Origin: Acidobacteriota bacterium
GTDB lineage: Bacteria > Acidobacteriota > Terriglobia > Acidiferrales > UBA7541
Reading direction: 5' to 3'
Length of the DNA stretch: 36,484 nucleotides
Assembly: GCA_003223255.1 (NCBI GenBank)
Contig: QHYJ01000209.1
Coordinates: 1 to 36,484 of the forward strand
Shown: piece by piece, positions 2,961-29,978 of the stretch
How positions within the stretch are numbered: position 1 is the stretch's first letter
Layout of the letters: each line of letters begins with the position of its first letter
Notes under the pieces: model-generated
The model's input: only the letters and a program-made list of their open reading frames with translations
The model's database searches: none
What the model was told of the DNA's origin: nothing
Translations under genes and position numbers: made by a program

Positions 2961-2988
2961 TTTTGACCTTGAACTTTTGACTTGACAC
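2961..2988 (+). repeat. Two imperfect 14-base tandem units before the receptor promoter
   Basis: TTTTGACCTTGAAC (2961-2974) is followed directly by TTTTGACTTGACAC (2975-2988). The second copy runs into the -35 box of the promoter. A binding site for a regulator is possible; this is inference from position only. Confidence 0.4.
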
Positions 2989-3010
2989 ACGTCTTTCAAA
3001 GCAGTATTAA
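2982..3010 (+). promoter_or_regulatory. Sigma-70-like promoter of the TonB-dependent receptor
   Basis: TTGACA at 2982-2987 and TATTAA at 3005-3010 are separated by exactly 17 bases. This is near-consensus for a housekeeping promoter. Transcription would begin near 3017 and give a 5' leader of about 180 bases before the GTG at 3198. TATTAA and TTAATA (3005-3010 and 3017-3022) form an inverted repeat over the -10 and start region, a typical repressor position. Confidence 0.65.
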
Positions 3011-3197
3011 CTCGTTTTAATAAGCGGCTCCGGTGCAGTTTAGCTATGCCTGTCGAGTGGTGGGGGGCTGTCTCAGTGAGGGGTATTCTTCGATCTGACG
3101 GTCTTGGCGCAAAGTTCATTATCTACTCGAAGTGTGCCCGCACTTTCCACGCGTTCTCTTCGTCACCCCAATTTCCATTTTTTTTGGAGGTTTTACC

Positions 3198-6100: not shown

Positions 6101-6809
6101 TTCTATTGACAATTCGTCAGATCGCTTCGACGGTGCCTTCGTAAATTCTTACAACGTCGCTACTAATCGGGGCAACTCCAATTTTGATCAGCGTCATACG
6201 TTGGCCATCAGCTATGTTTATGCGCTGCCGCTCTACCAGGGATCAGGCCTCGCACACACTATGCTTGGTGGATGGCAGATTTCAGGCATCACCGTCGCCC
6301 AAACCGGCCAGCCGTTCAGCGTTACGAACGGCACAGACTTTGGCGATAACGCTGGTGTGGCCAATGGCGTGGGAACAGGCTCCCGTCCTGATCTGGTTGG
6401 CAACCCTCATTCCGGTGTTACGCAGTCCAACATTCCCGGAATTCGAGGCCCGCTTCTCTATAACCCGGGAGCATTCGCCCTGCCCACGGGACTCACCTTC
6501 GGCGATGTGGGACGCAACACCCTTTACTTGCCTGGCCGCCTGAATTTCGACTTCGGCCTCTTCAAGCGCTTTTCCTTCGGCGAGAATAAAGCAATCGATT
6601 TCCGCTGGGAGAACTTCAACCTTTTCAACCATACGCAATTCAACGAGGTTAGCGGTTCGGGAGCTGGCGGCGGCGTGGCAATGGACTGCACCGGTGGTGC
6701 AAACAACACCGCCGGCGACCCCGGGTGCATCGCAACATCCTCTTTTCTTCATGCCACTAACGCGCATTTCGCGCGGCGCATGCAGTTTGGCTTGCGCTTC
6801 CAGTTCTGA
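3198..6809 (+). CDS. TonB-dependent receptor, Oar-like, with N-terminal carboxypeptidase-regulatory domain
   Basis: This outer-membrane protein of 1203 residues probably imports or binds large carbohydrate-derived ligands. The GTG at 3198 is chosen because GGAGG lies 7 bases upstream and a signal peptide follows (LGPCLLLALLLLPLASRAQ, cut near residue 40). Residues 42-125 form the CarboxypepD_reg-like beta-sandwich (YISGTVVDKSGSAVVGAEVVI...GTYNLAITAKGF). A plug domain follows (about 140-270; VMNGRNFTQLVNIAPGV, NGGRTEYNNWELDGGDNMD). The remainder is a beta-barrel ending in aromatic FGLRFQF, as expected for BAM-dependent insertion. The length and order match acidobacterial Oar-like receptors. 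No TonB box was identified with confidence. It has its own promoter and a strong terminator, so it is probably monocistronic. The ligand is unknown; neighbouring sugar enzymes suggest a glycan or glycoside. Confidence 0.93.
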   Translation: MTENFSFNRLHQRINSVGVARLGPCLLLALLLLPLASRAQDTGYISGTVVDKSGSAVVGAEVVIANASGSFTRTTSTNTDGAYVIAGLPGGTYNLAITAKGFQKYSARGVVLDVAQKSRVDVQLTVGAVTETVEVTGEAVAQVETTSSDLSSTITGKQIDNLVMNGRNFTQLVNIAPGVVNQTGQDEGRVGVYGNVSYSMNGGRTEYNNWELDGGDNMDNGSNSTLNVYPNPEAIAEFKVLTSNYGAQYGRNGSGTVEVETKSGGTTFHGSAFEYLRNEFFNAKDWRDGADPASKKPPYKKHDFGYTISGPVFIPDHYNADKKKTFFFFSEEWRRNKIPNTTDVVNVPSDAERTGDFSDVCPGADCPSVGATVPINPAGQALLSLIPTATPGLLKGGFPAVVQTVSLPETWREELVRIDNNFTDNYRLTFRYIHDSWQTQTENPLWGNGTNFNNINTEFAGPGTSFVARLNANISPTLLNEFVASYTADHIFLTALHNPPPPSGFAMGALFNNGFGGKLPAISLGTNPEYGVDSSLTADTGYFPWNNANPVYTYRDNMTKIHGTHTFTFGIYTAFAQKNEENSPYVQGILTFDSSNSTVSSGNAFADLLMGNIASYQQWNLTAKYYNRYRLVEPYFQDDWRATKRLTFNLGLRLSLFGTYRERYRRAFNFEPTAFVSANTPVLQGDGSLTPGVGNALNGVIQCGGPGGTVTLPGFGSANVGSSSNAGCLKGHLFNPAPRFGFAFDPKGDGKMAIRGGYGMFFEHTNGNEGNTESLEGSAPYALNATQVNIAGGVGSCPGASSGYSCIGGTGAVIPVFPLSVNSIPSKAIWPYVQQWHLDVEKELQSHIVVTASYVGSKGTHLTQQRNFNQLLPVTSNNPFAPGQPITSADCTSLSSNTLANGKPVSGQAATDLGVACGNDANPSRPFLGYSDITKLEDQANSIYHALQATARRTVGDLTLSLAYTYSHSIDNSSDRFDGAFVNSYNVATNRGNSNFDQRHTLAISYVYALPLYQGSGLAHTMLGGWQISGITVAQTGQPFSVTNGTDFGDNAGVANGVGTGSRPDLVGNPHSGVTQSNIPGIRGPLLYNPGAFALPTGLTFGDVGRNTLYLPGRLNFDFGLFKRFSFGENKAIDFRWENFNLFNHTQFNEVSGSGAGGGVAMDCTGGANNTAGDPGCIATSSFLHATNAHFARRMQFGLRFQF

Positions 6810-14465: not shown

Positions 14466-15062
14466 TCATTCCGGAAGCGGCGGGCACCCGGCAAATTCGC
14501 GCTGGGAGCTGTTGCCGATGTAGCCGAGGTCGGCGATGCCGATTTTGCTGGTGTAGTAGCCGTCGCAAGTCATGTTGCGAAGAAACGCGAAGAAAGAAAC
14601 GCCCTGGCTGAGCGAGGGATCCTGCCTCGCGTTTTTGCCGAAGGCAATGAGGTCGAGAATTTCCTTTTTCTGTTCTGGAGTACACTCTAGAAAAACCTTG
14701 CCGCAATGATCCGTGGAGTAATTGTCGAGCCAAAAAATTCCGCCGCCAAGCCTCAATTGATACTTTTCGTTTTCGCTGGTGAGGAGATCGATGAATTCGG
14801 GAGCGCCGGCCTCGACCGCGCCGCCGCACTTTTCGTCCTTGGGAATGATCATGTCGCACAGTGCGACGAGCGTGGCGTATTGCGCGGCGGAAAAATATTT
14901 TGGAGTGTATTTCCCTGCAGGAGAGGCTGCTTTTTCTTTGCGCACCATTTGGTGGATGTATTCGGCGGCTTCTGCAGGAATGACCTGGAGTACGGAGCCA
15001 GCGGCGGCGCCCACAGCGAGCGTGCGGAGAATGTCGCGACGAGAGATGGATTCGTTAGGCAT
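14466..15062 (-). CDS. Tat-exported small subunit of GMC dehydrogenase (gluconate 2-dehydrogenase subunit 3 family), copy B
   Basis: This protein has 198 residues from ATG 15062; a GTG at 15071 is possible but has no better ribosome-binding site. SISRRDILRTLAVGAAAGSVLQVIPAEA is a twin-arginine signal. The mature part matches Gluconate_2-dh3: YFSAAQYATLVALCDMIIPKDEKCGGAVEAGAPEFIDLLTSEN, then a helical middle and the C-terminal NMTCDGYYTSKIGIADLGYIGN. In characterised FAD-dependent sugar dehydrogenases this subunit carries the Tat signal and drags the folded flavoprotein across the membrane. Its partner is most likely the GMC gene ending at 15206, which lies 143 bases upstream in the same direction. 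It shows little close similarity to copy A beyond the family motifs, so it is not a recent duplicate. Confidence 0.85.
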   Translation of the reverse strand: MPNESISRRDILRTLAVGAAAGSVLQVIPAEAAEYIHQMVRKEKAASPAGKYTPKYFSAAQYATLVALCDMIIPKDEKCGGAVEAGAPEFIDLLTSENEKYQLRLGGGIFWLDNYSTDHCGKVFLECTPEQKKEILDLIAFGKNARQDPSLSQGVSFFAFLRNMTCDGYYTSKIGIADLGYIGNSSQREFAGCPPLPE

Positions 15063-15127
15063 GGGATTCACCGGAAAGAAAAAGATTTAACACCGCGGCC
15101 CCAGAGAACGCAGAGGAAGAAAGGCAA

Positions 15128-15165
15128 AAGAAGATCCCGCGATTCGCTCGGGATGACAAGACAGC
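15128..15165 (-). repeat. Interspersed repeat unit, short version
   Basis: On the minus strand the unit reads TTGTCATCCCGAGCGAATCG then CGGGATCTTC. It has the same terminal words (GTCATYCCGAGC ... GGATCT) as the unit at 8028-8113, but almost no interior. It sits between the GMC gene and its small subunit, so the operon must read through it. Confidence 0.5.
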
Positions 15166-15205
15166 CCGACGGACAGAAGGGAGAAGCGCTGGCGAGAAAC
15201 GCATG

Positions 15206-16909
15206 TTAGAGGTTGCCCTTTCTGGCTTCGTCGAGGAGGTATTCCGAGGCGCGCCACCCCAGCGCCATGATGGTGAGGGTGGGATTTTTGTCGGGATTGG
15301 TGACCAGCGGAGCGCCATCGGTGACGAAAAGATTTTTCACCTCGTGCGCCTGGCAAAAACCGTTGAGCACGGAAGTCTTGGGATCGGCGCCCATGCGGGC
15401 GGTGCCGACTTCGTGGATGATTTTTCCGCCGGGCTCGATGCCAAAGGGGAGATTGCCATGGATGGAAGTTTTGGTCTTGTATTCGCCGCCCGCAGTTTCC
15501 ACAATGGCTTTGAACGTTTCCTGCATATCCTTGGCCTGAAGCAATTCATAGTCGGACCACTTGAAGTGGAAGCGAAGGACGGGAATGCCCCACTCGTCCA
15601 CCACCTCGGGATCAATTTCGCAATAGGTATCGGGATTGGGAATCATTTCTCCACGACCGGCGAAGCCGATGTGGCAACCGTAAATTTTGCGAGCGCGCTG
15701 TTTTAGAGAAACTCCGTAGCCTTCTTCTTCCCGATTCATGGCGTTGAACATGCCGACGCCGGGCATTTCGCGGCCGCCGCCGAATTCGATGTGATAGCCG
15801 CGGGGAAAATCATTTTTGCGGTCGAATTTCCACCAGGGCATGTACATATGCATGCCGCCGACGCCGTCATGATTGTGCGGAGGCATTTTCTCGAGTTGCG
15901 GGAAATAACCGTAGCCGCCGCTGCCGACTGAGTCGGTCAAATATTTGCCCACCGCGCCGGAAGAGTTGGCAAGGCCGGTGGGAAACTGCGTGGACTTGGA
16001 ATTAAGCAGTAACCGGGCGGATTCGCAGGCGCTGGCGGCCACCACGATGGCGCGAGCGTTGATGCGTTTTTCGGAGCGCGTAGCTTTATCGATGTAAGAG
16101 ACGGCGGTGGCTTGGCCATCTTTGTCGACGAGGATTTCGCGAGCCATGGCGCCGGTGATGAGAGTGAGCTTCCCAGTTTTTAGCGCCGGCGGAATGAGAA
16201 CCTGGCTGGAGCTGAAGTTGGAAGCCGTGACGCAGCCGCGGCCACACTGACCGCAGTAGTGGCAAGGGAGGCGGCTATTCACGGATTTTGTGAGGATGGC
16301 GAGACGCGATGGAATGCAAATAATGCCGAGCTTGTCGCAGGCTTTCTTGACGATCAATTCGGTGCAGCGAGGCTTCGGTGGAGGAAGGAAGACGCCGTCG
16401 GGCGCGCTGGGCACGTTTTCTTTGGTGCCGAAAACGCCGATGTAGGATTCCACTTTGTCGTAGTAGGGCGCAAGATCCTCGTACGTGATGGGCCAATCGT
16501 CTCCGAGACCGTCGCGCGTTTTGGACTTGAAATCAATGGGAGCGAAACGCAGGGCGATGCGGCCCCAATGATTGGTGCGGCCGCCAACAATGCGCGAGCG
16601 AAACCATTGGAAATCCGAGCCGGGAGCCGAAGTGTAAGGCTCGCCTTCAATGTGCCAGGCGCCGTTGGGCGCGAGGAATTCGCTGAAGTTTTCGCGGGCG
16701 TGGCCACCGACACCCGCGCCGCGATGAGGCAAATCGTACGGCCACATGAACATTTTGAAGTCTTTTTCGGGGTGAACTTCCGGCCCGGCTTCGAGCATGA
16801 CGCAATTGAGGCCGCCTTCGGTGAGGACCTTCGCGGCCATGCCTCCGCCTGCGCCGGAGCCGATGATGCAGACGTCGTATTGTTTGGGAGAACGGATTAC
16901 CTGGGACAT
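15206..16909 (-). CDS. GMC-family FAD-dependent sugar dehydrogenase, large subunit, copy B
   Basis: This flavoprotein of 567 residues has the FAD-binding Rossmann motif GSGAGGG at 17-23 (YDVCIIGSGAGGGMAAKVL), followed by the ribose-contacting Glu of VMLEAG. SRIVGGRTNHWGRIALRF is the FAD-covering GMC segment. The catalytic pair is His499 (HEVGTARMG) and Asn542 (NPDKNPTLT). Residues 216-226 (CHYCGQCGRGC) hold four Cys in CxxCxxCxxxC spacing. This recalls the iron-sulfur cluster segment of the bacterial FAD glucose dehydrogenase large subunit. It has no signal peptide and probably hitch-hikes on the Tat signal of the next gene's product. The length is normal for sugar and glycoside dehydrogenases of this type. 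No cytochrome c subunit is encoded in the window. Confidence 0.9.
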   Translation of the reverse strand: MSQVIRSPKQYDVCIIGSGAGGGMAAKVLTEGGLNCVMLEAGPEVHPEKDFKMFMWPYDLPHRGAGVGGHARENFSEFLAPNGAWHIEGEPYTSAPGSDFQWFRSRIVGGRTNHWGRIALRFAPIDFKSKTRDGLGDDWPITYEDLAPYYDKVESYIGVFGTKENVPSAPDGVFLPPPKPRCTELIVKKACDKLGIICIPSRLAILTKSVNSRLPCHYCGQCGRGCVTASNFSSSQVLIPPALKTGKLTLITGAMAREILVDKDGQATAVSYIDKATRSEKRINARAIVVAASACESARLLLNSKSTQFPTGLANSSGAVGKYLTDSVGSGGYGYFPQLEKMPPHNHDGVGGMHMYMPWWKFDRKNDFPRGYHIEFGGGREMPGVGMFNAMNREEEGYGVSLKQRARKIYGCHIGFAGRGEMIPNPDTYCEIDPEVVDEWGIPVLRFHFKWSDYELLQAKDMQETFKAIVETAGGEYKTKTSIHGNLPFGIEPGGKIIHEVGTARMGADPKTSVLNGFCQAHEVKNLFVTDGAPLVTNPDKNPTLTIMALGWRASEYLLDEARKGNL

Positions 16910-17019
16910 TTTTGAGTTCTCAGTCTTAGATTTTAAGTTCTCAGTCGGAAAAAGAATCTTTGATTGCTCAACGCGCTTTTTTCAGAGCCATTTTAGACCT
17001 GAATTCTGAAGATGAAGAG

Positions 17020-17075
17020 AGATTTCTCCCTGCGGGGCGGCAAAAGGCCGCCGTCCCTCCGGTCGAAAATGACAG
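17020..17075 (-). repeat. Interspersed repeat unit of the TCATTTTCGACCGGAGGGACG...GAGAAATCTC type
   Basis: On the minus strand the unit begins TGTCATTTTCGACCGGAGGG and ends GCAGGGAGAAATCTCTC. Its centre is a GC-rich hairpin (GGCGGC/GCCGCC, 17036-17052, 5-base loop). It occupies the 193-base gap between the two GMC genes. It may act as an intra-operon attenuator. Confidence 0.55.
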
Positions 17076-17102
17076 ATTGGGCCGTGGTCATCATGGTTGT
17101 GG

Positions 17103-18794
17103 CTAGAGATTGTTTTTCTTCATTTCGGAGACGGCGAAATCACAAGCGCGCGCGGTGAGCGCCATGTACGTCAGCGACGGATTCACGCAGGAGGAAGAAG
17201 TCATGCAGCCGCCATCGGTGATGAAAAGATTCTTCACGTCGTGCGCCTGGTTGTGGGCATTGAGAACAGAAGTTTTGGGATCGCGGCCCATGCGCCCGGT
17301 ACCCATTTCGTGAATGCCGAGGCCCGGCGAACTGATTTCCTGATAGGTCTGGATGTCCTTGGCACCGGCGGCGGCGAGCATTTCTCCCGCCTGGATGGAG
17401 ATGTCTTTGGACATTGCATGCTCGTTGGGGCCCCAGGCGCAGTGAATCTTGAGGGTGGGGATGCCCCAGGCGTCGAGTTTCTCCTTATCAACCTCCACAT
17501 AGTTGTCGTGATTTGGCAGGCATTCGCCGAATCCACCCACACCAAAGCGCCAGGGGCCGGGCTTGCGGAGCGCGTTCTTGAAATCTGCGCCAATGCCGGT
17601 CATCCACATGCCGCGCGACCAGCCTTCGCGGTGTCCGCCACCCTGATAGCCATAGCCGCGAATGAAATCGTTTTGCTTGGTTTTCACGTTGCGGAACCGC
17701 GGGATGTAGATGCCATTCGGGCGGTTACCAAAAGGCATTTTGTCTTCGTGGCCCGGCATCATGCCGTTGGCGCCGGCGCCCATGTGGTGGTCCATGAGAT
17801 TGTGACCGAGCTCGCCGCTGGAGTTGGCCAGGCCATTGGGAAACTCCGGGGTGGCGGAATTGAGAAGGATGCGCGTGGATTCTAGAGTAGAAGCACAAAG
17901 AAAGACGATGCGGCCTTTGCATTCGAGTGGATTCTTCGTTTGCGCGTCGATGACACGCACGCCGGAAACTTTGCGCGTCTTCGAATCGAAGAGGAGGCTG
18001 TGAACAACGCTATAGGGACGGATAGTGAGGCGGCCGGTTTTCTGCGCGGCAGGCAGCGTGGAATTCAGGCTGCTGAAATAAGACTGCGTGATGCAGCCGC
18101 GATGGCAGACGCCGCAATAGTGACAGGCGGCGCGGCCCTTGTGGACTTGCGTAAGCACGGCGGAGCGGCCGATGGTCATGATGCGATCGTCGAAATGCTT
18201 GGCAAGGGCATCCCTGAAATCCTGTTCGACGCAAGTCATTTCCATGGGCGGAAGGAATTTGCCGTCCGGGAGCTGCGGCAAACCTTCGGGCTGACCGCTG
18301 ATGCCGGCGAATTCTTCGACGTAGTCGTACCAGGGGGCGATGTCGGCATAGCGAATGGGCCAATCGACGGCAATTCCGTCTTTCAGGTTGGCTTCGAAAT
18401 CGAGATCGCTCCAGCGATAGCTTTGCCGACCCCAGGTGATGGACTTGCCGCCGACCTGGCGCCCACGAATCCAGGAAAAATGTTTCCCGGGATCACAGGA
18501 ATAGGGGTTTTCGACGTCGCTAACGAAGAACTTGTGAGAGTACTCGTCGCAAGCGTAATAGCATTCGCGCTGAACGGGCTGCGTGCGTTCGCGTTCGAAG
18601 CGATTGTCCCAGTAGCGGTACTTGAGCTCCCAAACCGGAACGTGTTCGACATAGTCCTGTTCAGGAACGATAGTGCGGCCGGCCTCGAGCACCAATGTAT
18701 TGAGGCCTTTTTCGGTGAGTTCTTTCGCAGCCCACCCGCCGGTGATTCCCGAGCCGATAATGACCGCGTCGTAGGTCTTGGAATTCGGGGCCAT
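17103..18794 (-). CDS. GMC-family FAD-dependent sugar dehydrogenase, large subunit, copy A
   Basis: The 563-residue flavoprotein begins at ATG 18794, preceded by AGGTGA and only 9 bases after the small-subunit stop. The in-frame GTG at 18803 is less likely. FAD motif GSGITGG starts at residue 14. The GMC segment is RGRQVGGKSITWGRQSYRW. The four-Cys segment CHYCGVCHRGC covers 224-234. Catalytic His495 (HEMGTGRMG) pairs with Asn538 (SCVNPSLTYMAL). It lacks a signal peptide, consistent with Tat hitch-hiking on its small subunit. It aligns with copy B in all motifs but is clearly diverged, which implies a second substrate. Electrons would pass to an acceptor encoded elsewhere. Confidence 0.9.
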   Translation of the reverse strand: MAPNSKTYDAVIIGSGITGGWAAKELTEKGLNTLVLEAGRTIVPEQDYVEHVPVWELKYRYWDNRFERERTQPVQRECYYACDEYSHKFFVSDVENPYSCDPGKHFSWIRGRQVGGKSITWGRQSYRWSDLDFEANLKDGIAVDWPIRYADIAPWYDYVEEFAGISGQPEGLPQLPDGKFLPPMEMTCVEQDFRDALAKHFDDRIMTIGRSAVLTQVHKGRAACHYCGVCHRGCITQSYFSSLNSTLPAAQKTGRLTIRPYSVVHSLLFDSKTRKVSGVRVIDAQTKNPLECKGRIVFLCASTLESTRILLNSATPEFPNGLANSSGELGHNLMDHHMGAGANGMMPGHEDKMPFGNRPNGIYIPRFRNVKTKQNDFIRGYGYQGGGHREGWSRGMWMTGIGADFKNALRKPGPWRFGVGGFGECLPNHDNYVEVDKEKLDAWGIPTLKIHCAWGPNEHAMSKDISIQAGEMLAAAGAKDIQTYQEISSPGLGIHEMGTGRMGRDPKTSVLNAHNQAHDVKNLFITDGGCMTSSSCVNPSLTYMALTARACDFAVSEMKKNNL

Positions 18795-18803
18795 GAGAAT
18801 CAC

Positions 18804-19400
18804 CTAAGCCTTTCTCTCTGCGGGAACCACCGTGCAACCGTGAAATGCGCCGGGAATGATTTCGAGATTCAATTCCTTGGTGAATGCAACCTCGGAGGTG
18901 TAGTAGCCATGGAGCGTTATATTCTTGAAGACGGTAAAGAAATCTTCCTTAAGCTGGGTGTCCGGCTGGGGAACCGTGTTGTTAGCGTGGCGTCTCCTCT
19001 CCGATCGTGAGGCCGCAGCGGCGTCGTCCATAGAACGTAACAGGGTGACTTGTTGCACCGACGAAGCGGCAGCGAAATCCTTTCCGAAAAGTTCATTGCC
19101 TTGCTTATCGACGTCCGCGAGGCCGTCGAGGAAATGACGGCGCTCGTCCTCCGTAGCCCACTCAGTGAGAATGACGTCGATGAATTCGTTGACGCGAGCC
19201 GCTTTCGCGCCGGGCGTATCCGTGGCGGGGATAATTTGGTCGATCATGGCGACGACGGTGTCGTTCTGGTGAGGATTCAGGGTGCGCAGCGAGTAAGAGG
19301 CGTCAGGATGGGCTTGGCGGTAAAAGCCAAACAGCTCCGGAGTCAACGCGGGAATAACGGCTCCGGCGGTAAGCATGCGAAGGGCATCACGTCGATTCAT
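18804..19400 (-). CDS. Small subunit of GMC dehydrogenase (gluconate 2-dehydrogenase subunit 3 family), copy A
   Basis: This protein has 198 residues from ATG 19400, with GGGAGG four bases upstream. The longer open frame to 19460 merely overlaps the upstream gene. MNRRDALRMLTAGAVIPALTPELFGF is a short twin-arginine-like signal. The family core reads TLNPHQNDTVVAMIDQIIPATDTPGAKAARVNEFIDVILTEW, and the C-terminal signature is FKNITLHGYYTSEVAF. The gene overlaps the end of the upstream isomerase gene by 14 bases and ends 9 bases before the GMC start. Translation of all three is therefore likely coupled. It provides export and probably electron transfer or stability for GMC copy A. Confidence 0.87.
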   Translation of the reverse strand: MNRRDALRMLTAGAVIPALTPELFGFYRQAHPDASYSLRTLNPHQNDTVVAMIDQIIPATDTPGAKAARVNEFIDVILTEWATEDERRHFLDGLADVDKQGNELFGKDFAAASSVQQVTLLRSMDDAAAASRSERRRHANNTVPQPDTQLKEDFFTVFKNITLHGYYTSEVAFTKELNLEIIPGAFHGCTVVPAERKA

Positions 19401-20337
19401 AGTTCCTCCCCGATTCGAATGAGCGAGCCATGCGGGCGGAGCGCGCGCTGGAAATGGCAAGCTCGCGAGCGTCGCGCAATTCCTTCACCGGATCGCCAAG
19501 GGGATGAAATTCCATGGCGACGTAGCGGGAGTAACGCAGCTCGGCGAGCTTGCGATAGATATTGGCGTAGTTGATTTCGCCGGTTCCGGGGTGGTGGCGG
19601 CCGGGAACGTCGGCGACGTGGATGAGGCCGACAAGATCGATGTTTTTCTCGAGTTTTTCGATGAGATTGCCTTCGGCGATCTGCTCGTGGAAGAGATCGT
19701 AGAGAAACTTGACGTGCGGATTGCCGGCGGAACGGACAATGTCAAAACCTTCTGCGGAGCTGGTCAGAAAATATTTGGGATTTTCTTCCGGGTCGATGTT
19801 TTCAATGAGCAGCTCGATCTTGTTTTCGGCGGCGATATCGGCACCGCGCTTAAGCGTTTCGATGCAGTTGGCGTGCATTTGCTCCGGAGAGAGGCCGGGA
19901 ATCTTGTCGCCGGTCTGCATGATGAGGCGCGTGCAGTCCAGTTCGCGCATGGTGGGAATGAAATCGCGAAGGGCCTTGAGAAAAGCTTCACGCTTGGCAG
20001 CGTCCGCAAGAGGAAGCCACACGCCGCAGGTGCCATCGAACTCCATGCCCAGCTCATGCTTTTTGCGGCGCGCTTCGGCAAAGTCCGGCGGCTTCCAATC
20101 CTTGAATTCCCCGACCAGCTCGACGGCGTGATAGCCGGCTTCGGCAACCTTTTCGAGACGCTGCGGAAACGGGAGATCGCGGTAGACGGTCCAGAGCATC
20201 ACGGTGAAGGAGAAAGGAACGCCTTCGTTCTCTGTGGCCGCGTTCCGTGGCAATGTGGCGGCAGTTGCGGGAGCACGACCGGCGGCAGCCGTCACAGCGG
20301 CACCGGCACAAACGCCCATGAATTCGCGTCGATGCAT
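19387..20337 (-). CDS. Tat-exported hydroxypyruvate-isomerase-like TIM-barrel protein
   Basis: The 316-residue protein starts at ATG 20337 with GGGAGG eight bases upstream. MHRREFMGVCAGAAVTAAAG is a twin-arginine signal. The barrel matches the Hyi branch of the AP-endonuclease-2 superfamily: FTVMLWTVYRDLPFPQRLEKVAEAGYHAVELVGEF, ELLIENIDPEENPKYFLTS (strand Glu), VKFLYDLFHEQIAEGN (Asp/His), LVGLIHVADVPGRHHPGTGEINY and YVAMEFHPLGD (second Glu). These residues make up the divalent-metal site of the family. Cytoplasmic Hyi converts hydroxypyruvate to tartronate semialdehyde. An exported version next to sugar dehydrogenases more likely acts on a keto-sugar. It is the second gene of the cluster, overlapping the next by 14 bases. 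Confidence 0.87.
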   Translation of the reverse strand: MHRREFMGVCAGAAVTAAAGRAPATAATLPRNAATENEGVPFSFTVMLWTVYRDLPFPQRLEKVAEAGYHAVELVGEFKDWKPPDFAEARRKKHELGMEFDGTCGVWLPLADAAKREAFLKALRDFIPTMRELDCTRLIMQTGDKIPGLSPEQMHANCIETLKRGADIAAENKIELLIENIDPEENPKYFLTSSAEGFDIVRSAGNPHVKFLYDLFHEQIAEGNLIEKLEKNIDLVGLIHVADVPGRHHPGTGEINYANIYRKLAELRYSRYVAMEFHPLGDPVKELRDARELAISSARSARMARSFESGRNYEST

Positions 20338-20341
20338 CGTT

Positions 20342-21517
20342 TCAACCTCCCAGAATTTCGTTGCGAACGTTTTTCAAAACGTAGGCGGCGCGTTCGACGC
20401 CCACTTCACCGGCAAGAATGGGATCCTCGTTTTCAATGCTGAGGATGCCGTCGTAACCGATTTCCATGTATGCCCTGATGATGGATTTCCAAAGGCTGGC
20501 GCTGTGGCCGTAGCCGACCGCGCGAAAGGTTTCCGAGGCTGAGTCAAGATCGCCCTTTTCGAAAGCAAAGTTGAGGACGCCATACTTGTCGCGGTTTTCC
20601 GGGAAGAAGACAGTGTCTTTCATGTGTGCGTGAAAGATGGCGCCCTGCTTGCCAAGAAAATGGATGACCTCCACGGGATCGCAACCCTGCCAGAAAAGAT
20701 GGCTGAGATCGTTGTTGGCGCCAATTTCTTCGCCGACGGCTTCGCGAAGCTTGATCAGCGTACGAGGATTATAGACGACAAAATTGGGATGCATTTCAAG
20801 CGCCAGACGCTTGACGCCATGCTCGCGAGCGTACTGCGCGGCCTCTTTCCAGTAGGGGACGACCTTTTCCTTCCACTGCCAGTCCTGCATTCTGGCGTAT
20901 TCGGGAGGCCAGCGGTAGGTAATCCAGTTCGGCTGGGTATCCTGGGGCGTGCCGCCGGGGCAACCAGAAAAACCGACGATGACTTTGACGTCGAGCATTT
21001 CGGCAAGGAGAACGGTCTTGCGAAAAGTGTCGATGTCCTTCTTCGCGATGCGGGCATCGGGATGAATCGGGTTGCCGTGACAACTGAGTGTGGCCACGCG
21101 AATGCCGCGGTCCTCAAACTTTTTCTGCCAAGCTTTGGCCTTGGAGCGGTCGGCAATGAGGTCGTCGAGAGGACAGTGGCGATTGTTGGGATAGCCGCCG
21201 GTGCCAATCTCCATGGCTTCGAGGCCAAGGGCGGTGACCTTGTCGAGCATGGCGTCGAGAGAAAGATGCTCGTAGACGGGATCGAAGACGCCGATGGGAA
21301 TTTTGCGCACGCTGCCAGCGGGCCAGGGATTGGGCGCCGGGGCAGAGGAGGTTACCGATTCAGCCGCGTGCACCATGATAGAACCGCCTGGAACCGTCGC
21401 CGCGAGCAAGCCGCCCGAGGCGGCGAGGAATTTCCGACGGTCCATGAACGAATCTTTGGAAAACGAATTTCTGAGCGGCGAATCTTCAGCCGGCAAGTCT
21501 TTGGGGAGCGACCGCAT
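20342..21517 (-). CDS. Tat-exported sugar phosphate isomerase/epimerase-like TIM-barrel protein
   Basis: ATG 21517 has GAGG eight bases upstream and lies about 48 bases after the predicted transcription start. It gives 391 residues. ATG 21445, directly before the twin-arginine stretch MDRRKFLAASGGLLAATVPGG, would give 367 and is the alternative. The mature domain is a xylose-isomerase-like barrel: IPIGVFDPVYEHLSLDAMLDKVTALGLEAMEIGTGGYPNN, VATLSCHGNPIHPD, KRLALEMHPNFVVYNPRTL (strand Glu), IGANNDLSHLFWQGCDP, FHAHMKDTVFF and YDGILSIENEDPIL (second Glu). These residues imply a metal-dependent isomerase, epimerase, hydratase or lyase on a sugar. It is the first gene of the dehydrogenase cluster, with only four bases separating it from the next. 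Confidence 0.86.
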   Translation of the reverse strand: MRSLPKDLPAEDSPLRNSFSKDSFMDRRKFLAASGGLLAATVPGGSIMVHAAESVTSSAPAPNPWPAGSVRKIPIGVFDPVYEHLSLDAMLDKVTALGLEAMEIGTGGYPNNRHCPLDDLIADRSKAKAWQKKFEDRGIRVATLSCHGNPIHPDARIAKKDIDTFRKTVLLAEMLDVKVIVGFSGCPGGTPQDTQPNWITYRWPPEYARMQDWQWKEKVVPYWKEAAQYAREHGVKRLALEMHPNFVVYNPRTLIKLREAVGEEIGANNDLSHLFWQGCDPVEVIHFLGKQGAIFHAHMKDTVFFPENRDKYGVLNFAFEKGDLDSASETFRAVGYGHSASLWKSIIRAYMEIGYDGILSIENEDPILAGEVGVERAAYVLKNVRNEILGG

Positions 21518-21571
21518 GCGCGTCACCTCGGCCAACGCAGCACCACAAACTGGCACCATGGGTTCTGCGGC

Positions 21572-21601
21572 ATTATACGAAACCGTGTGACGCGCAAACA
21601 A
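21572..21601 (-). promoter_or_regulatory. Promoter of the isomerase/GMC cluster
   Basis: On the minus strand TTGTTT (21596-21601) and a consensus TATAAT (21572-21577) are 18 bases apart. Transcription would start near 21565, about 48 bases before the ATG at 21517. Confidence 0.6.
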
Positions 21602-21606
21602 GTATC

Positions 21607-21620
21607 GAAAATCGATTTTC
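21607..21620. promoter_or_regulatory. Perfect CG-centred palindrome upstream of the cluster promoter
   Basis: GAAAATCGATTTTC is a perfect 14-bp palindrome with a central CG, the hallmark of LacI/GalR-family operators. It lies five bases upstream of the -35 box, between the binding-protein gene and the cluster. The LacI regulator at 28926 is a candidate, by inference only. Confidence 0.55.
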
Positions 21621-21675
21621 TAAAGGACCGTTTGTTTCGAGGAGGCAGGAGCGCGACTTGAGAAAACCCAAAAGA

Positions 21676-22578
21676 TCACCGACGCTTGAGCTGGTTCAGA
21701 GGAGGGACGGAGACGGGGACGGTGAGGGCGCGCTCGGCCGGCTGCTTACCGCGTTGCAGCGCATCCACAAACATTTCGATGGCTTGGCCGGTGTTGGGCG
21801 GAACAAAAATGGTGGCGGCGAGAAGACGGCTCTTGACCCAAGCCTGGCCGGTCTTGGGCAGGCCGTCGCAGCCCAGGAACGGCAGGCTGAGCCAGCGCTC
21901 TTTTTCGGCTTCGTCAGGCAATTCCTCGAAGGCTTTGCGGGCCCCAATGGCCATGGAGTCGTCCTGAGCGGCAACGATGTCAATCGCGGCTTTGTGTGAA
22001 GTGGTGAGCTTTAACCAGGAGCGGACGGCTTTTTGCGCGCTCTCCTCGGTCCATTGGGCACGCAGAAAAGTGGGATGAACATTGACGGGCTTGGTTTCCT
22101 GCATGCCGGTGGCGCGATCCTTCGCGGCGGAATTTTCGGCAGGCCCTTGAATGCAGAGAACAGCTCCGCCGTGGGGCACGAGCGCGGCAATTTGATGGCC
22201 CTGGATGCGGCCGATCTCCAGATGGTCGGAAGTCACAACGAAAACGGGAGCGGATGACGACTTGCGAAGTTCTGAAACGTAATTGGCATCGCGGTTGAGA
22301 ACGGCCCAGCCGATCCCGGCGGAAGCAGCCGCGCGAGCGACCTGAGGCAGGGCGGTGCCGCCGACGGGCTCGAAGATGATGGCGTCGGGACGGTGCGACT
22401 GTTCGGCCTGGATTGCCTTGAGAAGCTGCGTGCTCTGGGTGATAGCATCGTTCTCCGCGTAAATCACCTGGAGCTCAACGCCGAATTTGCGAGCGGCCTC
22501 TTCAGCAGACTGTGCCTGTTCAATCTGATAATCGTTGTCGTTGGTGGTGAGCGAGACGAGAAAACGCAGTTTTTTCAT
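21676..22578 (-). CDS. RbsB-like sugar-binding protein without a signal peptide
   Basis: The 300-residue protein has the type-1 periplasmic-binding fold (Peripla_BP_4): RFLVSLTTNDNDYQIEQAQSAEEAARKFGVELQVIYAENDAITQSTQLLKAIQ, then PDAIIFEPVGG, WAVLNRDANY, VVTSDHLEIGRIQGHQIAALVPHGGAVLCIQGP and IDIVAAQDDSMAIGARKAFEE. It begins MKKLRFLVSLTTNDND, so strand 1 of the domain starts at once and there is no signal peptide or lipobox. No upstream in-frame extension supplying one was found. No ABC permease or ATPase is nearby. Such proteins may act as cytoplasmic ligand sensors, for example with a kinase. The ribosome-binding site is weak. It lies upstream of, and in line with, the dehydrogenase cluster. 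Confidence 0.83.
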   Translation of the reverse strand: MKKLRFLVSLTTNDNDYQIEQAQSAEEAARKFGVELQVIYAENDAITQSTQLLKAIQAEQSHRPDAIIFEPVGGTALPQVARAAASAGIGWAVLNRDANYVSELRKSSSAPVFVVTSDHLEIGRIQGHQIAALVPHGGAVLCIQGPAENSAAKDRATGMQETKPVNVHPTFLRAQWTEESAQKAVRSWLKLTTSHKAAIDIVAAQDDSMAIGARKAFEELPDEAEKERWLSLPFLGCDGLPKTGQAWVKSRLLAATIFVPPNTGQAIEMFVDALQRGKQPAERALTVPVSVPPLNQLKRR

Positions 22579-22705
22579 GCTGGTTGAGACCTGGCCACAA
22601 TGGCGAAGCCTAGCATAGCGCCTGAAACATTCGCTGCGGGGGAGAAACTAGCGGAAAGTTTCGTCAAAGGAAATCCCTGCCGCCGGAGGAACGGTTACGC
22701 AAAGG

Positions 22706-22929
22706 CTATAGGAATCTTGGAGGATTCATTTGCCGGGCGGGCGAGTCATCTCTAAAGTCATCAATATGCCCGGCTTCGAGGGTCGGCTTCTTCGTGCCCG
22801 GACTCTCGAGGGGAGCGCCGATGGAGCGCTTCCAGGCGGCTTTGGGAAGGTCATCGCCAGCCAGCGTGAACTTCGGAAAAGAAAAAGTCAGAGCAACAAA
22901 AAGAAAGGAACTACCCTGCGCACCTGCAT
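22706..22929 (-). pseudogene. N-terminal scrap of a secreted protein resembling GH116 glycosidase
   Basis: ATG 22929 with GGAGG four bases upstream opens MQVRRVVPFFLLL, a signal-peptide start that hits a stop. A one-frame shift continues FVALTFSFPKFTLAGDDLPKAAWKRSIGAPLESPGTKKPTLEAGHIDD and then unrelated residues to the stop. The order W-K-R-x-I-G-x-P-L-x-x-P-G ... I-D-D resembles the N-terminus of GH116 beta-glucosidase/glucosylceramidase proteins, from memory of the family. The catalytic domain is absent. The assignment is tentative, but the good start signals plus the secretory start support a real dead gene. Confidence 0.4.
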
Positions 22930-22991
22930 AAAACCTCCACGACGGCACAAGGACGGGGCCGTGACCCGAGGGAACGCAGCGGTCCCTAGCA

Positions 22992-23175
22992 GCGCTTGCG
23001 AGCTCTGGCACCGGGCCTGACTCCTCGAGCCGTGCTGGAAAAGATGTCCGCTATCCAAATGGTGGATGTACGGGTGCCGACGACCGATGGGCGGTTGCTG
23101 ATTCTCCCGCGATACACGCAACCGGAGACTCCTCCAGCAGGAACTAGAGAGTGTTGTCGAAGGGGAAAACCTGTA
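22992..23175 (+). pseudogene. Transposase C-terminal fragment, inverted relative to its neighbour fragment
   Basis: LRALAPGLTPRAVLEKMSAIQMVDVRVPTTDGRLLILPRYTQPE is the conserved end region of an IS4-type transposase subgroup. A one-base shift then reads LLQQELESVVEGENL to a stop near 23175. The catalytic part is on the opposite strand at 23289-23529, so the element has been rearranged. Confidence 0.6.
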
Positions 23176-23234
23176 GTGAAGACCTTTTGAAGTCTCGGAC
23201 GTAGAATCAATAACTTGCGGAAAAATTAAGGCCC

Positions 23235-23543
23235 AGTTGTCAAAGTCGGGCGCCGCAGCGTAACATACAGAGAATAAGCCAAGAACGATTACGAGATATG
23301 TGCCTCAATGCGCGAGTCCTTCTGGTGATGAATGGGGCGGATAGCCAGATCGCTCTTCAGAGCGCGAAAGACAGCTTCGATCTCCGTGAGTTGAACGTAG
23401 TGTTGCCACAGCCGGGCCGGGTCTTCCTCGGGTAGATTCGAGCGCAGCAGATAATGACCTTCCCGGCGAAAGGCTTGCCGGAGCTTGTCCCTGCGCAACC
23501 GGAAGGCGAACGTCTCCGCGTTGACCGGCTAGTTGACAAAGTC
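23235..23543. repeat. 13-base direct repeats bracketing a transposase piece
   Basis: AGTTGTCAAAGTC (23235-23247) and AGTTGACAAAGTC (23531-23543) differ at one base and enclose the fragment at 23289-23529. The inner TTGTCAA/TTGACAA words are also reverse complements, so these may be element ends. Confidence 0.5.
23289..23529 (-). pseudogene. IS4-type transposase internal fragment
   Basis: The frame reads PVNAETFAFRLRRDKLRQAFRREGHYLLRSNLPEEDPARLW, then HYVQLTEIEAVFRALKSDLAIRPIHHQKDSRIEAHIS and stops at 23289-23291. YVQLTEIEAVFRALK holds the catalytic Glu and Lys of the Y-x2-x-x3-E-x6-K region. The N-terminal Asp residues are missing and the C-terminus is cut exactly before the AHIFVAFLAY helix expected in relatives. 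The missing C-terminal segment lies inverted at 22992-23175. It directly abuts the truncated TPR gene. It belongs to a different subgroup from the fragment at 1-403. Confidence 0.75.
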
Positions 23544-25990
23544 CTAGTAGAATATCCTTATTCTACGCAAGAAGATTCCGCGTGCCATTAAGGGTTTTGC
23601 GGATTCCAGGCTTTCGCGCTTTTTGAGGCGGCTCTGTTCCATCAGTTTTTGATAGGTGGTGAGGGCTACGCGCCCGTCTTCCGTGCGTCCGGCGCGGCGA
23701 TAGGCCTGGCTCAACTGGTAGTAAGTCGCATCGCGGTCGGGAGCGAGCTTTCGAGCCGCTTCGAGGCTTGCGATGGCGCCCGTAACGTCGCCCGTTTGCA
23801 GGAGGGCGCGGCCAAGCTCGAAGTGCGCCAGCTCATACTCGGGCCGCGCCTTAATCGCATCCCGAAATCGGGCGGCGGCGGCAGCAGCTTCGCCCTTGAA
23901 AAGTAAAGCAAATCCGAGATGATAGGTCGTGACCGGATCCCCCGGGCGAATCTCCAGTTCGTCGCGGAACTCTCTGGCGGCAGAGTCAAAATCGCTTTGG
24001 CGAAGGTACACGAGGCCCTCGTAATAATGCGCTTCGGGAAGTTGGGGATTAATTTTCAGCGCATTCTGCAATTCCTTGAGGCTATCCCCAAATTGGTCCT
24101 GCTGCGCGTAGGCCTGGCCGAGGAGCAGATGGACGGCGGGATTGTCGGCGTTTTGTTCGAGCAAGCGCCGAAAGATTCCCATTGCAGACTCGGTCTGACG
24201 AATGCGCACAAGCGACGTGCCCCAAGCGTAAAGCAAGCCCGGATCATCCGGCGGATCTTGCAAAAAGAGGCGAAATACTTCCGCGGTTTTGGCAAAGTTG
24301 TCGGTCATGAAATAACTGAGGCCCAGAAGCTGGCGAACAAAAGCATCCTGGGGAGAGGCAGTGAGTTGCCGCTCCAGCGGAGGGATGGCCTCGGAATACA
24401 GCTCCGCGCGGAACGCCGCAAAGCCCCAGTTGCGGTCGAGGCCCGCAAGATCGGGCTTCCAGACAGCAGCTTGCTGGAAATATTCAGCAGCTTCCCGGAA
24501 CTTCGCGGCCTTGGCGCGCATCACGCCCAGGTCGTTGTACGAAACTAGCCAGGATTTCCGAGGCAAAAGACCGATATTGTTTAGCCTCTTTCGTCTCCGG
24601 GGGCATCTGAACTACGGCAGGCTGCTGTGTCGGCGGATTCTCCTGCTTGCCCGCTAACACCATGGCGTCCGCCGCTTTTCGATCTTCGCTGGCACCGGAT
24701 TCCAACAAGCCCGCAAGGCGATCGGAGGTATGGCTGTCGCCGTCGTCCGGCTTTCCGGGATCATCGAAAATGTGCTGGGCATCGTAACGAAATTTCGTTT
24801 CACGATAGCGCTGGGAACTTAACAAGGCTTTTTGCGCCTCTTCCATACGCCCGAGACGGCGCAAGTCCTGGCCCAGCAGGAAATATGCGCGGCCCATGTC
24901 CCGGGGAACTTCTTCGGGATCGCGGACGGGGTGAACGTATTTTTCGAGCGCTTCGGCAGCCTGCGGGAGGCGCTTGGTCTCGCTGAAAACTTCCCCGAGG
25001 TAAAGGTAGGGAAACGCTTGGTCGGGTCGCAGACGCCTGGCATGCAGCAGCGTGGTTTCGGCAGCAGGAAAATCCCGGAGGGCGACGCCGGAAGTGCCGA
25101 GAAGGAGGAGCGCATTGTAGTCGTCGGGGCGGAGCTTTAACTCATTCTCAAACTCGACGCGCGCCTGCGGATAGGCTTCTTCGCCGCGGAATTCCAGGAT
25201 GGAGTAGCCAAGCAGGCCGTGAGCGCGGGGATATTTCGGGTCGAGTTGAATCGCTTTGCGAAACTCGGCAACCGCGGGCTCGGGAAAATGCGTGATGGAA
25301 TAGGCGCGGCCAATCAACACGTGCAGAGCGCGGAGTCCCCATCTTGGCTTGCAATTGCTGGAACCATTGCTGGGCGTCAGCAAAGCGTTTCGCTTTCAGG
25401 TAGGCAATGCCAAGAAAGTAGGAAGTCTCGAAGTCATCGTCGAGGGCCACCGAAGCTTGCAGCTCGTAAATGGCGGATTCGTAGTCGCCCCGATAGAGAT
25501 CAATGCGTCCCAAAACATTTTGAGCGCGAGCCTGCCGCGGATCCTTAGCGAGCGCAGACCCAACGAGTTCGCGAGCCTTCTTGACATTCCCGGCGCGAAA
25601 CCAGGCCAGCGCCGCGTCGGTAGTGATCTCAGTGTCACCGGGCGCGAATTTCAGAGCTTCGTCCAGCTCACGTGTAGCTTCGTCGAAACGGGATTCGGAA
25701 ACCGAAAGATTGGCGAGCTGCCGCAGGCCGAGCGCAATGGCTTCGTCGTAGTGGCGCTCCGCATTGGAGAGATCTCCGGAAGCTAGGGCGGACTTGGCAG
25801 CGTCGAACGCGCGCTTCAGAACGGCCGCCGGATCTTCCCCGGAAGGCGCAGCGGCAACGAGGAGAGCAAACCCGATGGACAAGAGAACAAGCCGAACACA
25901 ACCGGACAGCAGATCACTGGGGCGCCCTTGCGCCGAGCAACGCAGCTCCTGAGAGCAGAACGAAAAATACTGGCGCTTACTTCGCTCCAT
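23544..25990 (-). pseudogene. Long TPR-repeat protein gene, two frameshifts, 3' end at an IS scar
   Basis: The gene starts at ATG 25990, overlapping the end of the CRTAC1 gene by 14 bases, with a signal peptide (CVRLVLLSIGFALLVAAAP). Frame one covers 25990 to about 25345 (repeats such as ARAQNVLGRIDLYRGDYESAIYELQASVALDD). After a shift near GGGG at 25340 the second frame continues ALHVLIGRAYSITHFPEPAVAEFRKAIQLDPKYPRAH to about 24545. An extra T near 24545 moves the reading to SYNDLGVMRAKAAKFREAAEYFQQAAVWKPD. This continues to the stop at 23544. Restored, it would be about 810 residues of TPR repeats. The 3' end coincides with the IS direct repeat at 23531-23543. CRTAC1-TPR pairs are common in Acidobacteriota. 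The frameshifts could be real decay or sequence errors. Confidence 0.8.
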
Positions 25991-27922: not shown

Positions 27923-27949
27923 GAACATAGGTCAAGCTGTGCCAGTACG

Positions 27950-28343
27950 CTAGAAGGTGAACTTCAGCGCGTACTGGATTTGCCGGTAGCCGTTTTCAGT
28001 AATCGAATTAATTTTGCCGTAACCGCCGGCCGACGGAGTCGCGGAGAGAATCTGAGTCGCGCCAACAAGCGTCTTGTTTGCATTCGGCACCACAACATTC
28101 CCACTCGCATCACCGTAAACTGGGTTCTGGAAATTGACGGCGGGGCTAAGAATATCGTTGTAGTTGTAGTGCGGAGTGTTGAATAAGTTGAAGAACTCCA
28201 ACCGGAACTGAGCCTTGATCTTCTCAGTCACCTTGCTGCGCGGCAAAAGGAACGGCCAGCAAAACAGCGCAGACGCACACGAGGCTGGCCCACACTCTGA
28301 GTTTGCGCGGCGATTCCAACAGACTGGAAAATCGAACTTTCAT
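27950..28343 (-). pseudogene. TonB-dependent receptor with internal deletion (signal peptide joined to last strands)
   Basis: ATG 28343 follows AAGGGGGTGG at good spacing and encodes MKVRFSSLLESPRKLRVWASLVCVCAVLLAVPFAAQQ, a normal receptor signal peptide. The frame stops near 28224. In the next frame, KIKAQFRLEFFNLFNTPHYNYNDILSPAVNFQNPVYGD...GYGKINSITENGYRQIQYALKFTF is the last beta-strand region of an Oar-like receptor, ending in aromatic Phe. The carboxypeptidase-regulatory, plug and most barrel segments, about 1000 codons by comparison with the receptor at 3198, are missing. The junction lies at about 28232-28246. Promoter, ribosome-binding site and terminator survive. Confidence 0.88.
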
Positions 28344-28469
28344 TTGTTCCACCCCCTTGAGGAAGATTTTCACGTAGACCCTGGAACATCCAGTCCGCGT
28401 AACGGAGCGTTTTACGAAGACTTTGGCTCGATCTAGCCCAATTAGAAGAGTCAAAGGACCCGAACCCCG

Positions 28470-28494
28470 AAAGCATTACACCCCGTAATGCTTT
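28470..28494. promoter_or_regulatory. 10-bp inverted repeat just after the receptor-remnant promoter
   Basis: AAAGCATTAC (28470-28479) and GTAATGCTTT (28485-28494) are perfect inverted copies with a 5-base spacer. They lie about 7-31 bases downstream of the predicted minus-strand transcription start. That is a classical repressor operator position. Confidence 0.65.
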
Positions 28495-28507
28495 CCTTCT
28501 AGTGCGC

Positions 28508-28537
28508 TATTTAGAACCAACTCCGCCAGGTTGCCAA
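28508..28537 (-). promoter_or_regulatory. Candidate promoter of the receptor remnant
   Basis: On the minus strand TTGGCA (28532-28537) and TAAATA (28508-28513) are 18 bases apart. The -35 is good and the -10 moderate. Start would be near 28501, giving a leader of about 158 bases. Confidence 0.45.
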
Positions 28538-28542
28538 GCAGA

Positions 28543-28578
28543 AATAATGATATTCTTAGGAACAATAATGTTATTCTT
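28543..28578 (-). promoter_or_regulatory. Two 15-base direct repeats, 21 bases apart, upstream of the -35 box
   Basis: On the minus strand AAGAATAACATTATT (28564-28578) and AAGAATATCATTATT (28543-28557) differ at one base. The 21-base period equals two helical turns, and the inner copy ends five bases from the -35 box. This geometry suits an activator. Confidence 0.6.
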
Positions 28579-28925
28579 CAGCCTGACATTTGGGGGCCAC
28601 CATTAAAGGTAGTCATCGGTTTGGGACTTACACGGATGCTATACCCTTGGTAATCAAGGAGTAACGGCTTGACTCTGCCCGACGGTGTCCAATCCCTGCT
28701 CGCCAAACCAGAAAGTGGGGCTTTTGGGAACGTCTGGTTTTAGCTGGCAGGGGCCACGGTGTGTCCGAAAATAGAGTTCGTTATACTGGTACCGTTCCAA
28801 CCGATGGCGCCGGGCCGTTTGAACCATCATCTCTTGTAGGAATAGAGGTAAAACGGCAGGCGCACTTTGCGGAAACAAGTTGCAAGGCCAGTCGTCTTTT
28901 GCGGGTCCCCGGAGGAATTTTGTAG
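28579..28925. other. Intergenic region upstream of the LacI-family gene
   Basis: No gene is supported. A palindrome CCTTGGTAATCAAGG (28645-28659; 5-bp arms) is the only clear structure. GGAGG for the next gene lies about ten bases before its ATG. The long open frame on the minus strand here (28971-28654) has no recognisable protein features. Confidence 0.45.
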
Positions 28926-29978
28926 ATGACCCAGTTGCCCAGGAAGAAGCAGTCCCCTTGCTCCGAGCCAAGAGTCACCCTAAAAACTATCGCGGATCAC
29001 CTCGGTCTTACTCCCGGCACGGTTTCCGCCGCGCTGAATAACTCTCCGGCAGCGCGCTCGATTCCGCAACATACCAAGAACCGCATCATCGAAGCGGCGC
29101 AGGCTTTGAACTACCGGCCCAACTTTTTTGCGCGCACGCTGCGCCTGCGTAGGACTTATACGATCGGCGTGATTGCCGAAGAGATTGGCGATGCCTACGG
29201 CGCCATGGTGATTAGCGGGATTGAAGAATACCTGCGAAAAAACAACTACTTTTTTCTGACCGTAATTCACCGTCATGACCCAAAACTGCTTCAGACCTAT
29301 GCGCAAATGCTTTTGACGCGAGGCGTGGAAGGCTTTATTACCACGGACACTTCGCTATCGGAAAAGCTGGCTCTGCCCACCGTGGCGGTCGCCGGACATC
29401 ACCGCGTGGAAGGCGTAACCAATATTGTTCTGGACCACAAGCGCGCCGCCCACTTGGCCCTCGAGCATCTGAAAAATCTCGGCCACAAGAACATTGCCTT
29501 TATCAAAGGCCAAGTCTTGAGCTCGGACTCTTCCGTACGGTGGAATGCCATCTGCGAAGTCGCGCGAGAACTGAACATTCGCGTTCGGCCGGAGCTGACC
29601 ATCCAGTTGGAAGGGACGGATTCCACGCCTGGCATTGGTTACCCCTTTGCCAAAGAACTGCTGGCGCGAAAGCACCCGTTTACCGCACTGTTTGCGTATA
29701 ACGACATTTCCGCCATTGGGTCGCTGTGGGCCATTCATGAAGCTGGGCTGCGCGTTCCGGAAGACATTTCCGTCGTGGGATTTGACGACACTCCGGGAGC
29801 GGCATTCGCCAATCCCCCGCTGACCACCGTGAGGCAGCCACTTCTGCGGATGGGACAAATTGCGGCGCAAACGGTTGTCGACCTCATCGAAGAGCGCGGG
29901 GAGTACGTGCCAGAAATCGCCATTGAGCCGGAGCTTGTGGTTCGCGAGTCCACCGGGCCTGCCCCTTTGCAGCACTAA
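28926..29978 (+). CDS. LacI/GalR-family transcriptional regulator
   Basis: The 350-residue protein has a standard LacI head at residues 17-70: VTLKTIADHLGLTPGTVSAALNNSPAARSIPQHTKNRIIEAAQALNYRPNFFARTLR. This includes the hinge helix. The sugar-binding-protein core follows: TIGVIAEEIGDAYGAMVISGIEEYLRKNNYFFLTVIHRHD, EGFITTDT, VAVAGHHRVEGVTNIVLDHKRAAHLALEHLKNLGHKNIAFIKG, TALFAYNDISAIGSLWAIHEAGLRVPEDISVVGFDDTPGAAFANPPLTTVRQP. All are canonical LacI motifs. It diverges from the receptor remnant and probably controlled that receptor and sugar genes in response to a sugar. Candidate operators are the inverted repeat at 28470 and the CG-centred palindrome at 21607. Confidence 0.95.
   Translation: MTQLPRKKQSPCSEPRVTLKTIADHLGLTPGTVSAALNNSPAARSIPQHTKNRIIEAAQALNYRPNFFARTLRLRRTYTIGVIAEEIGDAYGAMVISGIEEYLRKNNYFFLTVIHRHDPKLLQTYAQMLLTRGVEGFITTDTSLSEKLALPTVAVAGHHRVEGVTNIVLDHKRAAHLALEHLKNLGHKNIAFIKGQVLSSDSSVRWNAICEVARELNIRVRPELTIQLEGTDSTPGIGYPFAKELLARKHPFTALFAYNDISAIGSLWAIHEAGLRVPEDISVVGFDDTPGAAFANPPLTTVRQPLLRMGQIAAQTVVDLIEERGEYVPEIAIEPELVVRESTGPAPLQH

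Follow-up and report, generated by a model that had tools for sequence, protein, structure and literature searches.

A conserved CG-centred candidate operator upstream of a GMC oxidoreductase operon in uncultured Acidobacteria

The window, that is, the whole stretch of 36,484 nucleotides analysed here, carries a CG-centred palindrome (element E) just 5' of the -35 box of an oxidoreductase operon. Element E is probably the core of a conserved, locus-specific candidate site for a LacI-family regulator. We consider a LacI-type operator to be the best reading because E resembles the CG-centred sites that lie ahead of LacI genes in the same genomes.

Table 1. Coordinates of the elements, promoters and genes discussed in the text
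Feature	Position	Strand	Remarks
Element E, GAAAATCGATTTTC	21607-21620	-	CG-centred; with flanks TAGAAAATCGATTTTCGATACTTG, 21622-21599
Promoter TTGTTT-18-TATAAT	21572-21601	-	TTGTTT 21601-21596, 18-nt spacer, TATAAT 21577-21572
TIM1	20342-21517	-	TAT-signal-like, isomerase-like TIM-barrel protein; Pfam AP_endonuc_2
Rest of operon after TIM1	14466-20337	-	TIM2, Gluconate_2-dh3, GMC, GMC, Gluconate_2-dh3
TIM2	19387-20337	-	
Gluconate_2-dh3 (first)	18804-19406	-	Pfam Gluconate_2-dh3
GMC oxidoreductase (first)	17103-18794	-	Pfam GMC
GMC oxidoreductase (second)	15206-16909	-	Pfam GMC
Gluconate_2-dh3 (second)	14466-15071	-	Pfam Gluconate_2-dh3
PBP4	21676-22578	-	Sugar-binding protein upstream of E; Pfam Peripla_BP_4
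LacI-A	28926-29978	+	LacI-family regulator, divergent from cluster
AATAATGWTATTCT pair 5' of LacI-A	28543-28556, 28564-28577	+	21 bp apart; the genome's only exact copies
AATAAGGATATTCT	23549-23562	-	1-mismatch copy of LacI-A motif, upstream of PBP4
Element T, TTGACA-17-TATTAACTCGTTTTAATA	2982-3022	+	CG-centred palindrome 3005-3022; TTGACA 2982-2987
Receptor gene	3198-6809	+	Outer membrane protein; no NCBIfam match

Element E and its promoter in the genus

The initial annotation had described a perfect CG-centred palindrome just 5' of a TTGTTT-18-TATAAT promoter. Both points held, as GAAAATCGATTTTC is located at 21607-21620 and the promoter, which lies on the minus strand, is conserved in relatives. 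The centre of E is 36 bp 5' of the first T of TATAAT and 96.5 bp ahead of the TIM1 start codon. In most relatives carrying E, the promoter spacer is 16 nt rather than the 18 nt found here. Since the TTGTTT/TATAAT pair was not among the promoters listed by a promoter scan of 21400-23600, the promoter call rests on conservation. A terminator at the palindrome was rejected, as the scan of the same interval listed none there. The start of TIM1 (ATG at 21517) agrees with the start and the GAGG ribosome site kept in relatives.

Across 20 neighbourhoods, the order PBP4, TIM1 (TIM2), Gluconate_2-dh3, GMC, GMC, Gluconate_2-dh3 is largely kept, and some of these operons show gene losses or gaps. PBP4, which has no evident signal peptide, precedes the oxidase operon in 19 of the 20; in locus L121, the interval between PBP4 and TIM1 contains no listed frame for an ABC permease or an ATPase. 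The operon proteins that were scanned against NCBIfam gave no match at a curated cut-off, and the Gfo/Idh/MocA protein at 8126 showed a below-cut-off resemblance to a glycoside 3-dehydrogenase model. Judged from sequence, a role of the cluster in sugar or glycoside oxidation is reasonable but unproved. Between LacI-A and an ASPIC/VCBS-like gene, an apparent short remnant of a TonB-dependent receptor occupies 27930-28340 on the minus strand; as we read the sequence, its start and C-terminus are present and its middle is absent. In G023 (L122) and G048 (L130), the cluster is preceded by a receptor-like gene that is 29-30% identical to the 3132 receptor, and none is found at that place upstream of the cluster in G018, G019, G045, and G011.

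TIM1 orthologues were collected as 28 copies from 27 of the 36 genomes of the genus, and all 28 are preceded by a GTATAAT -10 box. Just 5' of the -35 box, 20 of the 28 carry an AT-rich, CG-centred element, AA(A/G)A(A/T)CGATTT or AAAACGATTTT: 16 copies have TAGAARAWCGATTT, L028 has a close variant, and L027, L052, and L030 have AAAACGATTTT. Locus L029 retains a partial element (ACGATTT alone), and a further seven copies are without it. In an alignment of 17 copies, the most conserved 14-nt window is TAGAAAAACGATTT, with a mean identity of 0.954 and 10 of 14 columns invariant; the best -10 window reaches 0.916, and the median is 0.68. All 17 copies share the central CG; because these were the closely alignable ones, selected for carrying the block, the invariance describes the subset. 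This top-ranking window, together with the presence of the element in 20 of the 28 copies, constitutes the phylogenetic footprint near a promoter that a LacI-family operator is expected to leave.

The symmetry of GAAAATCGATTTTC was rejected as evidence by itself. Three perfect palindromes of at least 14 bp were observed in the window against 3.4 +/- 1.5 expected from a first-order Markov background, and the expectation of 0.017 for CG-centred AT-rich perfect palindromes refers to a class picked post hoc. These counts agree with a chance palindrome devoid of function, but the element is conserved in 17-20 copies, more strongly than the -10 window, and such an origin is very improbable. The significance of E, like that of the second palindrome described below, therefore derives from its conservation and not from its being palindromic. 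Moreover, although E is an even palindrome with a central CG, its symmetry is imperfect in most relatives. The perfect form occurs in four of the 28 copies (L016, L046, L018, and L019) and the common form GAAAAACGATTTTC in five; most copies have A instead of T at an inner position, and GAAGAACGATTTAC-type variants are present. Given these counts of the perfect form and of GAAAAACGATTTTC, the perfect symmetry is a derived detail of the clade.

Bacterial UP elements are AT-rich, extend over about -40 to -60, and have no G/C requirement. If E were an UP element, that is, AT-rich DNA read by the alpha subunit of RNA polymerase with no regulator involved, its position directly 5' of the -35 box, its centre at approximately -46 to -48, and its AAAA and TTTT tracts would all be explained. 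However, conservation within the element is highest at the central CG and in the CGATTT half, with 10 of 14 columns invariant in the 17 copies, and an UP element would need no invariant CG. We retain an UP element as an improbable rival to the LacI-type operator.

LacI paralogues and their upstream sites

Three LacI paralogues (A, B, and C) with motifs of their own occur in the genus. The LacI-A motif AATAATGWTATTCT stands 5' of LacI-A orthologues at 18 of 31 loci (at most one mismatch), often paired 21 bp apart, and several genomes have copies of it ahead of the gene that opens the cluster. Among the 13 LacI-A loci without the motif, the upstream sequence of L225 is limited to 143 bp, and L246 holds a partial gene. 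LacI-B genes, represented in this genome by L080, have the motif CTAAAYCGATTTAG on their 5' side at 24 of 28 loci (at most two mismatches), and LacI-C genes have AGACAAWCGATTGTCT there at four of seven. The LacI-C gene of G000 (C149, L195, approximately 28082-29057) seems to be divided between two open frames, which would fit either a pseudogene or a misassembly.

Based on matrices built from the LacI upstream sites with the element itself excluded, the element was ranked in the 15 sequences, of 21 scanned, in which it was located. In each of these 15, the LacI-B matrix placed it at ranks 1-3 among approximately 21,000-73,000 positions. With this placement by the matrix of another LacI group and its even, CG-centred build, E does have the LacI-family operator form that had been ascribed to it. 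The ranks were 3 to 109 with the LacI-A matrix, 1 to 39 with a matrix of element T, and 1 to 11 with the LacI-C matrix, which comprises two sites only. Because the LacI-C matrix also ranks the element high, the match is to the class and not to one protein. The motif of E itself does not recur ahead of a cognate LacI gene: AATAATGWTATTCT of LacI-A differs, and the sites ahead of LacI-B and LacI-C are related to E, not identical.

As to the cognate protein, linkage favours LacI-A and sequence favours LacI-B. LacI-A is divergent from TIM1 and no more than 20 kb away from it in G000, G011, G017, G018, G019, G023, G024, G045, and G048, and with G041, where the linkage runs via a partial second copy, the linked genomes total 10; in most other genomes, LacI-A and TIM1 are on separate contigs. 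Furthermore, LacI-A is present in 25 of the 27 genomes with TIM1 versus four of the nine without it (p = 0.006, with no correction for shared ancestry). Among the genomes with the strict element, 16 of 17 have LacI-A, versus 13 of the 19 without it, a difference that is not significant (Fisher p = 0.09). Being related, the genomes are non-independent samples. E might be a LacI-A site that varies the protein's own motif, and GAATAAYGATATTC and the main form GAAAAACGATTTTC do agree at 12 of 14 positions, with two mirror-image differences. Against this, the protein's own matrix ranks the element no higher than third, and G004, G051, and G002 have lost or reduced the element yet keep LacI-A and its motif; more generally, several genomes with an element-less or partial TIM1 copy still keep LacI-A. 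The LacI protein at 28926, with whose predicted specificity the initial annotation had proposed to compare the palindrome, is supported as the regulator by linkage in 10 genomes, and the different motif upstream of its gene speaks against it. LacI-A is the most likely cognate protein, at rather less than an even chance.

Its paralogue LacI-B is a distinctly weaker candidate, and with it two regulators would meet on one cluster. In addition to its matrix ranks, its presence in 14 of the 17 element-bearing genomes speaks for it, the three misses being 63-84% complete. However, the outer half-site letters differ (CT..AG versus GA..TC), and LacI-B adjoins another gene, GH3 glycosidase-like from our reading of its sequence, rather than this operon. 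Although the LacI-C site closely matches E (12 of 14), LacI-C was rejected as its reader because the gene occurs in only four of the 17 element-bearing genomes.

Proposed control of the operon and known systems

In the mechanism that we propose, E would control an internal promoter that starts TIM1-TIM2-Gluconate_2-dh3-GMC-GMC-Gluconate_2-dh3. A LacI-family dimer would bind E, and binding of a sugar or sugar derivative to the LacI protein would alter transcription. Activation of the Cra/PckR kind seems slightly preferable to simple occlusion because E is centred approximately 46-48 bp ahead of the expected start and so falls beyond the core promoter.

According to PMC4052901, 1251 of 1303 motifs of LacI-family transcription factors are even palindromes, 1173 factors have a central CG, and over 75% of the sites are found 140-30 bp ahead of the start codon, compared with 96.5 bp for E. 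The same study reports autoregulation for 72%, so that a motif at the cognate gene is usual but not obligatory, and a dual action of PckR (activation or repression) predicted from the position of the site in the promoter. It covers seven phyla, and the term 'Acidobacter' is absent from this text. Like the operators in PMC4052901, E is even, CG-centred, AT-flanked, and close to a sugar-locus promoter that has a LacI gene in its vicinity; the ThuR motif given there, natcnAAAnCGnTTTngatt, has the core AAAnCGnTTT in common with E. Unlike them, E is imperfectly symmetric in most relatives, and its regulator is a candidate only. Cra/FruR and PckR, as far as this source describes them, are dual regulators of the LacI family and thus comparable; in contrast, they are global regulators, whereas E is approximately single-copy per genome. 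A literature search for a described LacI regulon in Acidobacteria gave nothing on point, and E would be a switch of an ordinary type that is apparently undescribed in the phylum. For uncultured soil Acidobacteria (subdivision 2), a poorly studied group, the analysis provides footprint-supported candidate regulatory sites and promoters for a sugar cluster of receptor and GMC oxidases.

Distribution of E and the second palindrome at the receptor promoter

Element E is essentially unique to this operon. GAAAATCGATTTTC has a single exact copy in the window and in the 6.66-Mb genome, in which one near-copy with one mismatch and 48 with two were counted; the contrast between these 49 and the single match of a reversed-pattern control partly reflects dinucleotide content. 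Of 15 near-matches examined among the 49 (own site excluded), 14 are inside open reading frames and one is intergenic. A sequence model (R1) of 17 promoters gave 17 matches with E <= 5.6e-9 over the 36 genomes, all at this operon and all among the sequences used in building the model. The next match was at 0.0099, and several of the weak matches were again TIM1 promoters. Similarly, the strict pattern TAGAARAWCGATTT-N3-9-CTTG occurred once each in 16 of the 36 genomes, 15 times at TIM1, and its reversed control gave 0 matches. The single match away from TIM1 (G001:C147:1554-1580, TAGAAAATCGATTTTTTTTGAATCTTG) is in a genome without TIM1. The motif enrichment at sugar-gene promoters on which the initial annotation had staked a wider regulon is therefore absent, and a genome-wide or multi-gene sugar regulon of E was rejected.

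The second palindrome, element T, precedes the receptor gene, whose product we take to be TonB-dependent-receptor-like from its sequence character. An imperfect CG-centred palindrome over the -10 region of this gene had been proposed at about 3007-3020; it is real, conserved, and overlaps the -10 box, but these bounds are short, the unit being 18 bp long. The -10 box of the receptor forms the left half of the palindrome, and this overlap is a position for repression. T is kept as TTGACA .. TATTAAyyCGwTTTAATA 5' of 25 of 25 aligned receptor orthologues in 24 genomes, with one or two deviations in L273 and L277.

E and T were rejected as one motif on their half-sites. The proposal that both could belong to one sugar regulon is likewise not supported, as these half-sites differ (TTTTC versus TTTAATA) and each element is approximately single-copy per genome. 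Since G020 has the receptor and T while the TIM1 operon and the LacI-A orthologue are absent, the evidence does not tie T and E to one regulator. At five loci (L075, L077, L081, L250, and L251), LacI-B group sites are within two mismatches of the 18-letter T pattern, so the operator class of these sites may also include T. It is conceivable, though on balance unlikely, that E, T, and the tandem LacI-A pair form a set of related CG- or TG-centred operators, each distinct, that belong to the duplicated paralogues A, B, and C, with half-sites that diverged stepwise and a cluster read by more than one LacI protein. A genus in which three LacI paralogues each have their own conserved upstream site provides a natural test set for half-site divergence after duplication, and if the diverged operators were real, the specificity code of the LacI family would be traceable inside a single genus.

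A scan for TTGACA-N16-19-TATTAANYCGNTTTAATA over 84,980 species returned 29 stretches with one match each, and 24 of these matches lie directly 5' of a homologue of the receptor. Among the others, four stretches run on for no more than 313 bases downstream, and L298 is without such a gene. The matching records are mostly titled Acidobacteria gp2 or Candidatus Acidiferrum. One record titled Betaproteobacteria (L302, CAJCHZ010000031.1) contains the Acidobacteria receptor together with T, and its title is probably a mislabel.
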